NCBI RefSeq assembly: GCF_001425085.1
Contig: NZ_LMDN01000002.1
Span: forward strand, 645,796-709,795
Length of the DNA: 64,000 nt
Reading direction: 5' to 3'
DNA from: Leifsonia sp. Root4
GTDB lineage: Bacteria > Actinomycetota > Actinomycetes > Actinomycetales > Microbacteriaceae
In this document: positions 45,632 through 52,787 of the stretch, one piece after another
How the letters are laid out: each line of letters opens with the position of its first letter
How positions within the stretch are numbered: the stretch's first letter is position 1
Notes under the pieces: model-generated
Told to the model about the DNA's origin: nothing
Database searches by the model: none
Seen by the model: only the letters and a program-made list of their open reading frames with translations
Position numbers and translations under genes: made by a program

Positions 45632-46801
45632 CTATAGCCGCGCCAGCGCCTGCTCGACGTCGGCGAGCAGATCGGCGACATCCTCGATGCCGACCGAGAG
45701 CCGCACGATGTTCGGCGCCACCTCGAGCTCCGTGCCGCGCACCGAGGCGTGCGTCATCTCGCTCGGGTAGTTCACGAGCGACTCGACCCCGCCGAGCGAT
45801 TCCGCCAGCTGGAACAGTCGCATCGACTCGGCGAAGCGCCTGGCCGCCGGCTCTCCCCCACTCAATGCGAGCGAAATCATGCCGCCGAAGCCCGACATCT
45901 GCCTGGCCGCGAGCTCGTGCCCCGGATGCGTCTCCAGCCCCGGGTAGTAGACGCGCTCGACCGCGGTGTGCCCCTGGAGGTAGGAGGCGATGGCGTACGC
46001 GTTGGCGCTGTGCCGCTGCATCCGCACGTCGAGTGTCTTGATGCCGCGGGCGGTGAGGAAGGCATCCATCGGCGCAGAGACGGCGCCGGCCGCGAACTGA
46101 ATGAAGCGGATCTTGTCGTGCAGATCGTCGTCGTTCAGCACGACAGCACCGCCGATCACGTCGGAGTGCCCGCCCAGGTACTTCGTCGTCGAGTGCACGA
46201 CGACGTCTGCGCCGAGCGCGAGCGGTTGCTGCAGCGCGGGCGAGGCGAAGGTGTTGTCGACGACCACGAGGATGCCGTAGCGGTGGCCGAGCGCGGCGAG
46301 CGCGGCGATGTCGCTGACCGCCATCAGCGGATTGCTCGGTGTCTCGACCCACAGGATCTTGGTGCCGGACTCGATGGCCGCCTCGACCGCGGCCAGATCC
46401 GTGAGGTCGACGGGGGTGTTCCGGATGCCCCACGCGCCGTGGATCCGATTGATCAGCCGGTACGTTCCGCCGTAGGCGTCGTTGCCGAGCACGACGTGGT
46501 CGCCGGGGGCGAGCGCGGCACGCAGCAGGGCGTCCTCGGCCGCGAGGCCGGAGGCGAAGGAGAGGCCGTGGGCCGCGCCCTCGAGGGCGGCGAGCTGGGT
46601 CTCGAGTGCCGTGCGGGTCGGGTTGCCGCCGCGGGAGTACTCGTAGCCGCCGCGGAGGCCGCCGATGCCGTCCTGCACGAAGGTCGAGCTCTGGTAGATC
46701 GGCGGGATCACGGCGCCCGTCGTCGGGTCGAAGTGCTGGCCCGCGTGGATCGCGCGGGTGGCGAAGGCGTCGGAGTCTGTGGGAGAGGCGGAGCTGGTCA
46801 T
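45632..46801 (-). CDS. Cystathionine gamma-lyase / gamma-synthase (PLP-dependent)
   Basis: 389 residues, the usual length. ATRAIHAGQHFDPTTGAVIPPIYQSSTF, SRGGNPTR, and the PLP lysine in VVHSTTKYLGGHSD are Cys/Met-metabolism PLP enzyme signatures. Gene order behind cystathionine beta-synthase suggests reverse transsulfuration: cystathionine to cysteine plus 2-oxobutyrate; gamma-synthase activity cannot be excluded. Separated from the CBS gene by an 86-bp gap with a REP-like repeat. Probably cotranscribed and under the cysteine leader upstream. Confidence 0.9.
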   Translation of the reverse strand: MTSSASPTDSDAFATRAIHAGQHFDPTTGAVIPPIYQSSTFVQDGIGGLRGGYEYSRGGNPTRTALETQLAALEGAAHGLSFASGLAAEDALLRAALAPGDHVVLGNDAYGGTYRLINRIHGAWGIRNTPVDLTDLAAVEAAIESGTKILWVETPSNPLMAVSDIAALAALGHRYGILVVVDNTFASPALQQPLALGADVVVHSTTKYLGGHSDVIGGAVVLNDDDLHDKIRFIQFAAGAVSAPMDAFLTARGIKTLDVRMQRHSANAYAIASYLQGHTAVERVYYPGLETHPGHELAARQMSGFGGMISLALSGGEPAARRFAESMRLFQLAESLGGVESLVNYPSEMTHASVRGTELEVAPNIVRLSVGIEDVADLLADVEQALARL

Positions 46802-46887: not shown

Positions 46888-48252
46888 TCACTGGCTGAGG
46901 TAGCGGAGCAGGTCGTGGCGGGTGATGACGCCGAGCGGCTTGCCGCCGTCGGTCACGAGCAGCGCGGTCGCGGCACCGAACGCGGCCCTGGCGTTCGCGA
47001 CCGGCTCGTTCACGCCGATCAGTGGCAGCGCCGCCCCGGTGAACTGGCCGACCAGCGCGCTCAGCGGAGCCTCGCCAGAGAACACCTGATCGAGCAGCTG
47101 CCCCTCCTCGATCGCGCCGACCACCTCGCCCATCACGACCGGCGGCTTCGCGCTCAACACGAGCAGCTGCGAGACTCCGGCGGCGGTCATCGCGTCGATC
47201 GCCTCGCGCACCGTGTCGGTCGGGTGCACGTAGAGCAGCGCCGGCGTGCGGTCCGCCTTGGATGCCAGCAGTTCCGCGACCGTGTGCCCGCTCGGGGCGT
47301 TGCTGAAGCCGTAGCTGCGCAGCCACTTGTCGTTGAAGATCTTGCCGAGGTAGCCGCGACCGCCGTCTGGCAGAAGCACGACGACGACGGCATCCGGGCC
47401 CAAGTCGGCCGCGGCTCGGAGTGCGGCCACGACGGCCATGCCGCTGGAACCGCCGACGAGGATCCCCTCCTCGCGGGCGAGCCGCCTGGTCATGGCGAAG
47501 GCGTCGGCGTCGCTGACGGCGAGCACCTCGTGCGGAATGGCCGGGTCGTAGGCGCTCGGCCAGAAGTCCTCGCCGACGCCCTCGACGAGGTAGGGCCGAC
47601 CGGTGCCTCCGGAGTAGACCGAGCCCTCCGGGTCGGCGCCGATGATGCGCACCGTGTCGCCGGAGACCTCACGCAGGTAGCGCCCGGTTCCGGTGATGGT
47701 GCCGCCGGTGCCGACACCGGCGACGAAGTGGGTGACCGTGCCGTCGGTATCGCGCCAGATCTCGGGACCGGTGCTCTCGTAGTGGCTGAGCGGTCCGTTC
47801 TGGTTCGAGAACTGATCGGGCTTGAACGCCCCGGGGATCTCGCGCACCAGCCGGTCGGAGACGCCGTAGTACGACTCCGGGCTGTCGGGCGCGACGGCCG
47901 TCGGCGTCACGACGACCTCGGCACCATAGGCACTCAGCACGTTGATCTTGTCTTCGCCGACCTTGTCCGGCAGCACGAAGATGCAGCGGTAGCCGCGCTG
48001 CTGGGCCACGAGGGCGAGCCCAACGCCCGTGTTGCCGCTGGTCGGCTCCACGATGGTGCCGCCCGGTTTCAGCTTGCCCTCGCGCTCGGCCGCATCGATG
48101 ATGCGGGTGGCGATGCGATCCTTCGCCGAGCCACCGGGGTTCAGGTACTCGAGCTTCACGAGCACGGTGGCCGCGATGCCGTCGGTCACGCGGTTGAGCT
48201 TGACCAGCGGCGTGTTACCGATGAGGTCGACGATCGATTCTGCAAAGTGCAT
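46888..48252 (-). CDS. cbs: Cystathionine beta-synthase
   Basis: 454 residues from the ATG with AAGGA 7 nt upstream. The catalytic domain has GGSAKDRIA (PLP lysine), TSGNTGVGLAL and GVGTGGTITGTGRYL. The last ~120 residues are a CBS-domain pair (LLYVHPTDTVREAIDAM and GVNEPVANARAAFGAATALLVTDGG). It condenses serine and homocysteine into cystathionine in the cytosol. With the next gene it forms a homocysteine-to-cysteine route. The 158-nt leader contains a hairpin, and a poly-Cys leader peptide lies upstream. Confidence 0.94.
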   Translation of the reverse strand: MHFAESIVDLIGNTPLVKLNRVTDGIAATVLVKLEYLNPGGSAKDRIATRIIDAAEREGKLKPGGTIVEPTSGNTGVGLALVAQQRGYRCIFVLPDKVGEDKINVLSAYGAEVVVTPTAVAPDSPESYYGVSDRLVREIPGAFKPDQFSNQNGPLSHYESTGPEIWRDTDGTVTHFVAGVGTGGTITGTGRYLREVSGDTVRIIGADPEGSVYSGGTGRPYLVEGVGEDFWPSAYDPAIPHEVLAVSDADAFAMTRRLAREEGILVGGSSGMAVVAALRAAADLGPDAVVVVLLPDGGRGYLGKIFNDKWLRSYGFSNAPSGHTVAELLASKADRTPALLYVHPTDTVREAIDAMTAAGVSQLLVLSAKPPVVMGEVVGAIEEGQLLDQVFSGEAPLSALVGQFTGAALPLIGVNEPVANARAAFGAATALLVTDGGKPLGVITRHDLLRYLSQ

Positions 48253-48337
48253 GGTGGTGTCCTTCACGAGCTGTCTTGTCAGGGAGGAATCCTCTGACGG
48301 ATGCCGCGGCGCCCCTCCCGAAACCGCCCGGAAACGG

Positions 48338-48352
48338 CCTCGAGTGTCGAGG
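48338..48352 (-). promoter_or_regulatory. Leader hairpin between the Cys leader peptide and cbs
   Basis: CCTCGA and TCGAGG arms form a perfect 6-bp stem around a 3-nt loop, 58 nt after the leader-peptide stop. It is followed by further GC-rich, partly complementary segments, candidates for the attenuating structure that hides or exposes the cbs start. Structure was judged by eye only. Confidence 0.4.
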
Positions 48353-48410
48353 TCTCAGGCTGTGGGAGTGCTGCCGCGCAGGGTGGTGAGTCTGTTTGAG
48401 GGCGCGTCGA

Positions 48411-48446
48411 TCAGCGACAACAACAACAGGACTTCACAGTGGACAC
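48411..48446 (-). CDS. Poly-cysteine leader peptide of the transsulfuration operon
   Basis: Eleven codons from a GTG give MSTVKSCCCCR followed by TGA. All four cysteines use TGT, the rarer codon in this GC-rich genome. The GTG lies 6 nt after a TACAGT -10 element, so the message appears leaderless. The cbs start is 158 nt downstream. Leaderless poly-cysteine short ORFs are known in mycobacteria as cysteine-responsive attenuators; here ribosome stalling on the Cys codons when charged tRNA-Cys is scarce would derepress the cysteine-forming genes (inference). Confidence 0.75.
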   Translation of the reverse strand: MSTVKSCCCCR

Positions 48447-48452
48447 GCTCTC

Positions 48453-48481
48453 ACTGTAGCCACGAGCACCGGCCGTGTCAC
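48453..48481 (-). promoter_or_regulatory. Promoter of the Cys-leader/cbs operon
   Basis: On the minus strand GTGACA (48476..48481) is followed by a 17-bp spacer and TACAGT (48453..48458). The predicted transcript start coincides with the leader-peptide GTG. The remaining part of the 435-bp divergent region up to 48687 has no recognisable gene. Confidence 0.65.
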
Positions 48482-48687
48482 GTTCACGACCTCAATCGGC
48501 AGAAGCGATGGCGCGCGGACGGCGCCAAAAACGGGTGGGAACAGGTGGCGGGTGGCCCGCGGCACCCGGCGCATGTTCAGCGCCTCCCCAGCGAATGCCG
48601 ATACATTCGTATTCATTCGGTGTCTGCACTGCGCACCGGACGAACCGCTTTTGCACCCACCCACGCTCAGCATTCGAGAGGCCGAGA

Positions 48688-49386
48688 ATGTCTTCTTCCC
48701 CGACCCCGCCCGTTCCCCCTGCCGCCAAGGCGCAGGCGAAGGCGCTCACCGTCAAGGAACAGCGCGCCGAGGCTCGCGCGAAGAAGCTCGAGGAGTACAA
48801 GAAGCGCGAGGCCAGGGCCCGCCGCAACCGCCTGATCGGCATCTGGTCGGCCGTGGCCGGCACCGTCGTGATCGTTGCCCTGGTCGTCTCAGCGATCGTG
48901 CTCACCCCACAGCGTGCGAGCTACACCGCCGGCAGCGATGGCGCGAAGATCTCCGGTGTCGAGACGTTCAAGAATGGCGCAGGCCACGTCGAGGGCACCG
49001 TCGACTACCCGCAGAACCCGCCGGCCGGTGGCGAGCACAACCAGATGTGGCTCAACTGCGGCGTCTACGACCAGCCGGTTCCGAACGAGAACGCCGTGCA
49101 CTCGATGGAGCACGGCGCCGTCTGGGTCACCTACGACCCGAAGCTCTCCGATGACGACCTCGCTGCGCTCAAGCTGAAGCTGCCCAGCAGCTACATCGTG
49201 CTCTCCCCCAAGGAAGACCTGCCCTCGACCATCGTGCTCAGCGCGTGGAACGCGCAGCTCCAGGTCGACTCCGTCGACGACGAGCGCGTCGGCGAGTTCC
49301 TCGAGGAGTTCTGGAAGAGCCAGTTCGTTCCCGAGCCCGGCGCCCTGTGCTCCGGCGCGCTGGACGCACCCGGCAAGGTCTCCTAG
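48688..49386 (+). CDS. DUF3105 domain membrane-anchored protein
   Basis: 232 residues from the ATG preceded by GAGAGG. A lysine/alanine-rich, probably coiled N-terminal segment (about 12-50) leads to one transmembrane helix (IGIWSAVAGTVVIVALVVSAIVL). The outer domain shows the DUF3105 features HVEGTVDYPQNPPAGGEHNQMWLNCGVYDQP and HSMEHGAVWVTYDP, with several histidines and cysteines that could bind metal. It is 11 bp upstream of a DUF305 gene, a pairing seen in many actinobacteria. Function unknown, possibly metal handling outside the membrane. Confidence 0.87.
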   Translation: MSSSPTPPVPPAAKAQAKALTVKEQRAEARAKKLEEYKKREARARRNRLIGIWSAVAGTVVIVALVVSAIVLTPQRASYTAGSDGAKISGVETFKNGAGHVEGTVDYPQNPPAGGEHNQMWLNCGVYDQPVPNENAVHSMEHGAVWVTYDPKLSDDDLAALKLKLPSSYIVLSPKEDLPSTIVLSAWNAQLQVDSVDDERVGEFLEEFWKSQFVPEPGALCSGALDAPGKVS

Positions 49387-49397
49387 AGGCGACATCC

Positions 49398-50129
49398 GTG
49401 ACAGACACGATCGAGCACACGAGCGGCGCCGTCGAGGCCGTTGACGGCACCGAGGGTACGGGGCCAGGGCGCCGCATGGGCGGGCGCGTGTTCGTGGCGA
49501 TCATCGCCGTGCTCGCACTCGTCGTCGTCGCGCTCGTCTCCTTCTCGATCGGTCGTCTCAGCACGATCGGCGCGACGCCGGGCGACACCAGCGCGGAGGC
49601 AGGCTTCGCCCGCGACATGCAGGCGCACCACGTGCAGGGCGTCGAGATGGCGATGATCATCCGCGACCTCACCGATGACCCTGAGACGCGTCTGCTCGCC
49701 TACGACATCGCGACAACGCAGGGCCAGCAGTCCGGCCAGCTCTACGGGTGGCTCAGCGAGTGGGGCCTCGGCCAGTTCGGCCCCGAGCCGTCGATGACGT
49801 GGATGACGCGTCCGGCGCTGAACGGCGAGGGCGGTCACGCCCACGCCGCCTCGACGGATGCCGCGAGCACCGACCACGTGCCCGGCGGCCCCATGCCCGG
49901 CATGGCCACGGCCGAGCAGCTCGCCGAGCTGAAGGCCGCAAGCGGCGTCGAGGCCGAGCGCATCTTCCTCACCTTGATGATCGCCCACCACAAGGGCGCG
50001 CTCGAGATGGCGGATTCGGTGCTGGAGCGCAGCACCAACTCGGTGATCGTGCCGTTCGCGAACTCGGTGCTCGCCAGCCAGGCCTCCGAGATCGAGCTGA
50101 TGGAGAGCATGCTGGCCGAGCGCCAGTAG
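49398..50129 (+). CDS. DUF305 family membrane-anchored protein
   Basis: 243 residues from a GTG with a GAGG ribosome site. One N-terminal membrane helix (RVFVAIIAVLALVVVALVSFSIG), then two halves each carrying the DUF305 motif: FARDMQAHHVQGVEMAMI and LTLMIAHHKGALEMADSVL. These ferritin-like helices with HH pairs suggest metal or copper binding. A His/Met-rich linker (GHAHAAS, GGPMPGMA) supports that. Partner of the DUF3105 protein. Confidence 0.88.
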   Translation: MTDTIEHTSGAVEAVDGTEGTGPGRRMGGRVFVAIIAVLALVVVALVSFSIGRLSTIGATPGDTSAEAGFARDMQAHHVQGVEMAMIIRDLTDDPETRLLAYDIATTQGQQSGQLYGWLSEWGLGQFGPEPSMTWMTRPALNGEGGHAHAASTDAASTDHVPGGPMPGMATAEQLAELKAASGVEAERIFLTLMIAHHKGALEMADSVLERSTNSVIVPFANSVLASQASEIELMESMLAERQ

Positions 50130-52299: not shown

Positions 52300-52393
52300 G
52301 TGCGCTCCTTCCGGTCCCTCCTCACCCTACGGCCACCGGATGCCGGGTCGGCGGTTTCGCGCAGACGCTCAGGGCTTCGCGTGCATCGCTGCT

Positions 52394-52787
52394 CCTTCGT
52401 CGCTGCGCCGCTCGCTCAAGCCAGCGTGCATCTGCAGCCCGGCGAGAGAATGCACGATGACTCGATGGAGGCACATCCCCACGCTGGCTCGAGGGAGCAG
52501 CCGAGGAACGAGGCCGCCCCCGAAGCCCTGACACACGCCATGACTTCGCGCAGAAGCTCAGGACCTCGCGCCGACGACTGCGACGCTACCCCTTCGTCGC
52601 TGCGCCGCTCGCTCGAGCCAGCGTGCATCTGCAGCCCGGCGCGAGAACGCACGATGACTCGACGGAGGCACATCCCCACGCTGGCTCGAGGGAGCAGCCG
52701 AGGAACGAGGCCGCTCCCGAAGCCCTGACACACGCCATGACTTCGGGCACACGCTCAGGACTTCGCGCCGACGACTGCGACGCTAGC
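52394..52787. repeat. Tandem 197-bp duplication downstream of aglG
   Basis: Two nearly identical units start at 52394 and 52591 (ccttcgtcgctgcgccgctcgct), and the beginning of a third falls at 52788 inside the end of the aglG-like gene. Each unit has a 14-bp inverted repeat (ctcgagccagcgtg / cacgctggctcgag). The 483-bp gap 52300..52782 contains only this material; short open frames across it are not credible genes. Confidence 0.85.

Follow-up and report, generated by a model that had tools for sequence, protein, structure and literature searches.

The tnaC leader of E. coli senses free tryptophan via nascent-peptide arrest. In M. smegmatis, the polycysteine attenuator is reported to work by RNA pairing, which masks the ribosome-binding site (RBS) of the next gene and is opened by a stalled ribosome. 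The polycysteine leaderless short open reading frames (sORFs) of mycobacteria reportedly are cysteine-responsive attenuators, a result credited to Canestrari et al. in 2020. The available text of three citing papers describes mycobacterial polycysteine leaders as reported cysteine-dependent attenuators (PMC9031893, PMC9094748, PMC13236596), and conserved Cys-rich leaderless upstream ORFs (uORFs) in mycobacteria had been noted in 2015, again according to the available text (PMC4633059). Seliverstov et al. (2005) had earlier predicted leaders with Cys runs ahead of cys operons of Mycobacterium and Propionibacterium acnes, and also ahead of the cbs gene of Bifidobacterium longum (PMC1262725, available part).

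Here we describe a short ORF upstream of cbs in Leifsonia sp. Root4 and its counterparts in other Microbacteriaceae. Like the mycobacterial polycysteine attenuators, it is a short ORF of leaderless type in which Cys codons follow one another, it precedes cysteine-metabolism genes, and control by cysteine is proposed for it. Unlike them, it belongs to Microbacteriaceae, precedes the cbs gene of reverse transsulfuration, has a shorter CC(R)R* core (the asterisk stands for the stop codon) and is biased to TGT, and its cysteine response is a prediction. With the Seliverstov candidates it shares the Cys run near the stop and the lack of an obvious terminator, and the B. longum case also lies directly before cbs; those candidates cover Mycobacterium, P. 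acnes and B. longum, and the available part of that paper describes neither leaderless starts nor Microbacteriaceae leaders nor the CC(R)R* core (PMC1262725). The Streptomyces trp, ilv and leu leader peptides likewise come from leaderless short ORFs rich in the amino acid that controls them, but this amino acid is not cysteine; several of them carry terminator hairpins, and none of the eight listed in the available text is a cysteine leader (PMC8079986). Our literature search returned no paper combining leaderless, attenuation and Microbacteriaceae, and nothing on cbs leaders besides PMC1262725. Leaders with Cys runs are a known kind, one before a cbs gene had already been predicted, and the addition made here, as judged from sequence comparison, is a conserved Microbacteriaceae cbs family of putative leaders with a CC(R)R* core.

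The leader locus upstream of cbs

The analysed DNA, called the window, is 64,000 nucleotides long, and all coordinates refer to it. The cystathionine beta-synthase gene cbs lies on its minus strand (46888..48252; TIGR01137 585 bits, cut-off 510; PALP and CBS domains). Its start is most likely the ATG at 48252, while a GTG at 48267 is also possible for the listed ORF. A cystathionine gamma-synthase/lyase family gene follows 3' of cbs on the same strand (45632..46795; PRK07811 653 bits, cut-off 513; Cys_Met_Meta_PP). Both matches are above their cut-offs, so the tie of the leader to reverse transsulfuration, proposed in an earlier sequence-only reading of this DNA, holds. One genus mate, G004, gave no cbs match at 1e-150, unlike the other four genus genomes searched.

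Upstream of cbs on the minus strand there is a -35-like hexamer GTGACA (48481-48476), with the same letters in three genus mates, and after a spacer of 17 nt, read directly from the sequence, a -10-like hexamer TACAGT (48458-48453). The six nucleotides GAGAGC separate TACAGT from a GTG at 48446, which opens the putatively leaderless ORF VSTVKSCCCCR* (48446-48411, with TGA at 48413-48411). Codons 7-10 of this ORF are four TGT Cys codons (48428-48417), and 158 nt lie between the ORF and the ATG of cbs. The order claimed by the sequence-only reading, GTGACA-N17-TACAGT, 6 nt, GTG, an 11-residue ORF with four TGT codons, a hairpin and cbs, is exact on this strand. The hairpin, CCTCGA-CAC-TCGAGG, is indeed present at 48352-48338 but has no U-run and is no terminator. 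In a consensus scan, the promoter-like site was the sole one in 1001 scanned bases, where 0.1 would be expected from shuffles. Judging by the spacing from TANNNT to the start, initiation at the window leader is probably leaderless; this spacing is 6 nt in 16, 7 nt in 4 and 8 nt in 1 of the 21 cbs-anchored leaders described below, for which 3-10 nt were permitted.

In the window's own genome, the search for runs of four Cys codons gave 34 matches, 30 of them with loci, and short Cys-run ORFs occurred at five loci, among which only the one at cbs has a -10 nearby. No Cys-holding short ORF was found within 400 nt 5' of the matched region of the genome's own cysK-like gene. Rfam returned nothing at threshold for positions 47500-49500 of the window, where the one match scored 19 bits (E 0.87) and the gathering score is 45; no described riboswitch or T-box family is thus matched. 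Elsewhere in the window, at 52359-52752, a 197-nt repeat is present in two head-to-tail copies that are 88% identical.

Conservation, anatomy and distribution of the leader

We assembled 84 cbs upstream regions, namely those of the best 80 cbs loci listed from named GTDB genomes, of three genus mates and of the window. Short ORFs of leaderless type that contain at least two Cys per five residues were found in 21 of these 84 regions, compared with one in the reverse complements, none in the reversed sequences and between 0 and 2 in each of ten shuffles. When three or more Cys were required, 11 were left, compared with one, zero and zero, respectively. As this first scan had sought Cys, 81 cbs upstream regions were rescanned blind to composition for leaderless-type ORFs of 5-20 residues. 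Such ORFs were found at 19 loci, where the shuffles gave a mean of 1.6, and at 17 of the 19 loci they are Cys-rich (0.04 in shuffles). The next enriched residues after Cys were Arg (9), Ser (8) and Leu (6), and the two exceptions that are not Cys-rich read MRERANGAPLL and VAVAW.

Besides the scans of cbs upstream regions, we ran a pattern without cbs as anchor, consisting of a -10 followed at 6 nt by GTG, then TGTTGT and CGCT, on 398 genomes of the family. Since its CGCT tail and its 6-nt spacing were derived from cbs leaders, Cys leaders of other shape may exist at other genes. The pattern matched in 31 of the 398 genomes, compared with six matches for the reversed control. One match had no locus, and the 30 inspected loci comprise 27 short ORFs and three matches within long frames. 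All 27 short ORFs, which come from seven genera and include the window itself (L147) and its nearest mate (L146), lie directly 5' of cbs and thus, as in the window, precede a cysteine-metabolism gene on the same strand. A stricter fixed-length pattern matched in 3 of 299 genomes, which are the window, the nearest mate and one that by eye lies inside an apparent longer frame. The sequence-only reading had set conservation of the Cys peptide before cbs in relatives as a check, and the cbs-anchored, unanchored and composition-blind scans all bear it out.

At the level of the order, 248 genomes (20 from the family) were searched, and 2 of the 228 outside the family, L152 and L153, matched the pattern. 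L153 lies within a long frame and is a false leader. L152, in genome G622 from another family of the same order, is a leaderless-type ORF VFLSRVCCR* followed by a ribosome-binding site GAGGACACC ahead of a gene other than cbs. The product of this gene has a weak match to luciferase-like monooxygenases (E 0.023, below the cut-off), and on its sequence it may be a second target of the same sensor.

In total, 48 leaders were collected, 43 of which are distinct. They start with GTG or ATG, mostly have 8-13 residues, and in nearly all of them the Cys codons are near the stop. The usual ending is CC, Arg and stop, as in VNISRSCCRR, VFVNLLCCRR, VLLSLCCR, VSSSFTCCRCR and VSTVKSCCCCR. Variants occur in which Arg is replaced (CCPR, CCPGR, CCCFH, CCC*), a few leaders have CRC for CC, and some have CCC. 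The conserved core is CC(R)R*, in which a pair of Cys codons, adjacent or close together, is followed by Arg and the stop, and CCCC is an extension of it. In the genus, all four cbs-bearing members, window included, have the leader, two of them reading CCRC instead of CCCC. The conservation anticipated for CCCC thus applies to a Cys peptide, which is kept in relatives, while CCCC itself is limited to the window and its nearest mate among these four.

The choice of Cys codons is unusual as well. In the 21 cbs-anchored leaders (60 Cys codons), the ratio of TGT to TGC is 54:6, compared with 11:44 in 31 gene-like ORFs of the window. Because this bias is opposite to that of the window ORFs, the leader letters themselves seem to be constrained. 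Compared with genus mate G002, 35 of 36 leader positions are identical, and so are 57 of the 62 in a C-rich stretch after the leader stop (48349..48410, minus strand). The surroundings are less similar: 32/79 identical in the 79 nt 5' of the promoter, 34/79 in the rest of the leader RNA and 35/50 at the beginning of cbs.

The leader is by no means a general feature of cbs loci in relatives, being missing from 63 of the best 80 GTDB cbs loci. In 45 of these 63 loci, a TANNNT lies 4-9 nt before the cbs start, so that in them the cbs gene looks leaderless. A quick cbs tree of 81 rows requires a minimum of nine changes for the leader, three of them forced by starred branches, compared with 16.6 when shuffled; this count does not distinguish gain from loss. 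The smallest starred set that contains the window has the leader in 11 of its 14 rows. In Agromyces humi (L013), the RBS letters equal those of the leader-bearing neighbour L011 and a promoter-like TAGGCT lies 32 nt before the start, without a leader ORF; from its letters this upstream region looks like a possible natural loss of the leader. One record titled Sporosarcina beigongshangi (L052) has a cbs which the tree places with those of Arthrobacter, and the record may be mislabelled or contaminated.

A predicted cysteine sensor and its possible output

We consider it likely, on the sequence comparisons above, that the short ORF with which the cbs transcript would begin is a ribosome-stalling cysteine sensor controlling cbs. 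Directly supported are the ORF and its conservation, its location ahead of cbs, its content of Cys and preference for TGT, and the constrained block that follows its stop; from there we infer that initiation is leaderless, that ribosomes stall and in which direction cbs responds. Ribosomes would load on the 5'-terminal GUG of the cbs transcript. With plentiful Cys-tRNA they would move past the Cys codons, terminate at the stop close by and come off the RNA, and cbs would remain poorly expressed. With scarce Cys-tRNA they would stall on the Cys codons, cbs and the gene after it would be expressed, and cysteine would be made from homocysteine.

For the output of such a sensor, the leader RNA might pair with the RBS of cbs, and a stalled ribosome would hold this pairing open; we regard the chances of this step as roughly even. 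The RBS region of cbs, GACAGCTCGTGAAGGACAC (48257..48275, minus strand), is identical in the four cbs-bearing genus members, and GGACAC within it (48262-48257) is complementary to the first six bases of the leader, GUGUCC. For the analyses of pairing, spacer and hairpins, the starts of L117, L118, L017 and L127 were reset to in-frame upstream ATGs. Pairing between sORF and RBS was no better than cross-pairing over 31 leaders, a set from which the duplicate L147 was omitted and in which near-copies were clustered (p 0.27). A list of 32 leaders was used for the analyses of spacer, upstream region, 5'-end pairing, hairpins and C minus G, and 37 distinct pairs for the clade-wise pairing test. In the window and in genus g12, the 5' end can pair with GGACAC. 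This pairing beats shuffles (z -3.2 and -4.5); in the permutation it has p 0.054, and by clade it is not significant. The best permutation value in this test, 0.016, belongs to bases 7-18, a region not predicted beforehand. In the Cys tract, runs of at least seven pairs occurred in 8 rows of the 37 distinct pairs, which is fewer than in shuffles (12.8). When a stall was modelled, RBS accessibility rose by 0.15 on average and by 0.06 in the window, with more than 0.1 in 21 of 32 leaders, a gain no greater than with shuffled spacers. A universal sORF:RBS pairing is thus not upheld over all leaders.

In eight leaders of Agromyces/Leifsonia type, picked after inspection because the pairing was already visible, the codon that precedes the first Cys can pair with the bases next to the cbs AUG, and 24 of 24 pairs are kept (permutation 0.018). 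The middle position of these pairs varies between C-G, U-A, U-G and G-C. Support for RBS unmasking in these sequence comparisons appears to be lineage-specific, and as a general rule it fails. Speculatively, the sensor codons might double as the masking strand: in Agromyces/Leifsonia-type leaders the UGU codons and the preceding codon would pair with the cbs RBS up to the AUG, the 5'-terminal GUG may do the masking in the window's genus and its relatives, and lineages would alternate between two states, one in which cbs is leaderless and one in which the sensor ORF is leaderless and cbs is masked. We hold this elaboration to be rather unlikely as a whole.

A different output for the same sensor would be Rho-dependent and TnaC-like. 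The C-rich RNA after the stop would load Rho, a stalled ribosome would cover the start of this RNA, and a ribosome that finishes would bare it, so that transcription would end before cbs. In 31 of 32 leaders C exceeds G in the spacer, with means of 0.45 for C and 0.27 for G, while among the 63 upstream regions that lack a leader this holds for 31. For 21 of 32 leaders, the C minus G value of the 60 nt beginning at the stop ranks within the top 5%; because of these two results, Rho-dependent termination is a serious rival. In the window, the C minus G value of the 60 nt from the leader stop is reached by 1.7% of the window's 60-nt stretches on both strands. The Cys codons close to the stop fit this output too. 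A classical trp-type transcription attenuator, which would have an intrinsic terminator between leader and gene, is not supported: a consensus scan of the minus strand from 48450 to 48250 found no terminator-like site, which also suits Rho. For Cys leaders a role of Rho was suggested in 2005, together with the analogy to E. coli tnaC (PMC1262725, available part). In tnaC, too, a stall near the leader stop adjoins a possible Rho-loading stretch. Unlike tnaC, codon starvation is proposed here and the role of Rho is putative. A G-poor spacer could also simply avoid structure or false start sites, and the mycobacterial relatives are described as translation attenuation in the available text of PMC13236596. 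Taken with these points, termination by Rho seems to us a possibility on the doubtful side.

In alignments by leader group, no fold recurred in every group. At the place of the hairpin at 48352-48338, a CCTC/GAGG stem with different loops is possible in G002 and G003. A possible hairpin UGUCG/CGACG holds the leader stop codon in its loop (48405..48419, minus strand); at -3.4 kcal/mol it is weaker than its own shuffles in the window. Over 32 leaders this hairpin gave z values of -2.6 and -4.4, being strong in some relatives and weak in the window.

The short ORF might also merely deliver ribosomes to cbs or remove them, as a simple uORF or by translational coupling, its codon content being irrelevant. 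Leaderless uORFs are in general able to alter downstream translation (PMC9031893, available part), but such a role would leave unexplained why 17 of 19 ORFs from the composition-blind scan are Cys-rich and why the leaders are biased to TGT, and the gap from the stop to cbs ranges from 49 to 247 nt in the 43 distinct leaders. We therefore think this explanation improbable. That the ORF arose by chance and has no function is next to impossible in our judgement: short frames are common in GC-rich upstream regions and most of the best 80 GTDB loci lack the leader, but the Cys-rich loci far outnumber those in shuffles, every short ORF found by the unanchored pattern sits before cbs, and the leader is nearly identical to that of G002 within a drifting region.

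Meaning for Microbacteriaceae and for cysteine sensing

The composition-blind scan indicates that ORFs of about 8-13 residues are reliably detectable by promoter spacing alone. The 43 distinct natural leaders, and neighbours that seem to have lost a leader or never had one (L013, L010), are material to separate RBS unmasking from Rho. Masking by the UGU codons, if true, would help explain the near-constant TGT in these GC-rich genomes. If the function of the predicted cysteine sensor holds, cysteine sensing by codon stalling extends beyond mycobacteria, and reverse transsulfuration would be a recurring target of it.
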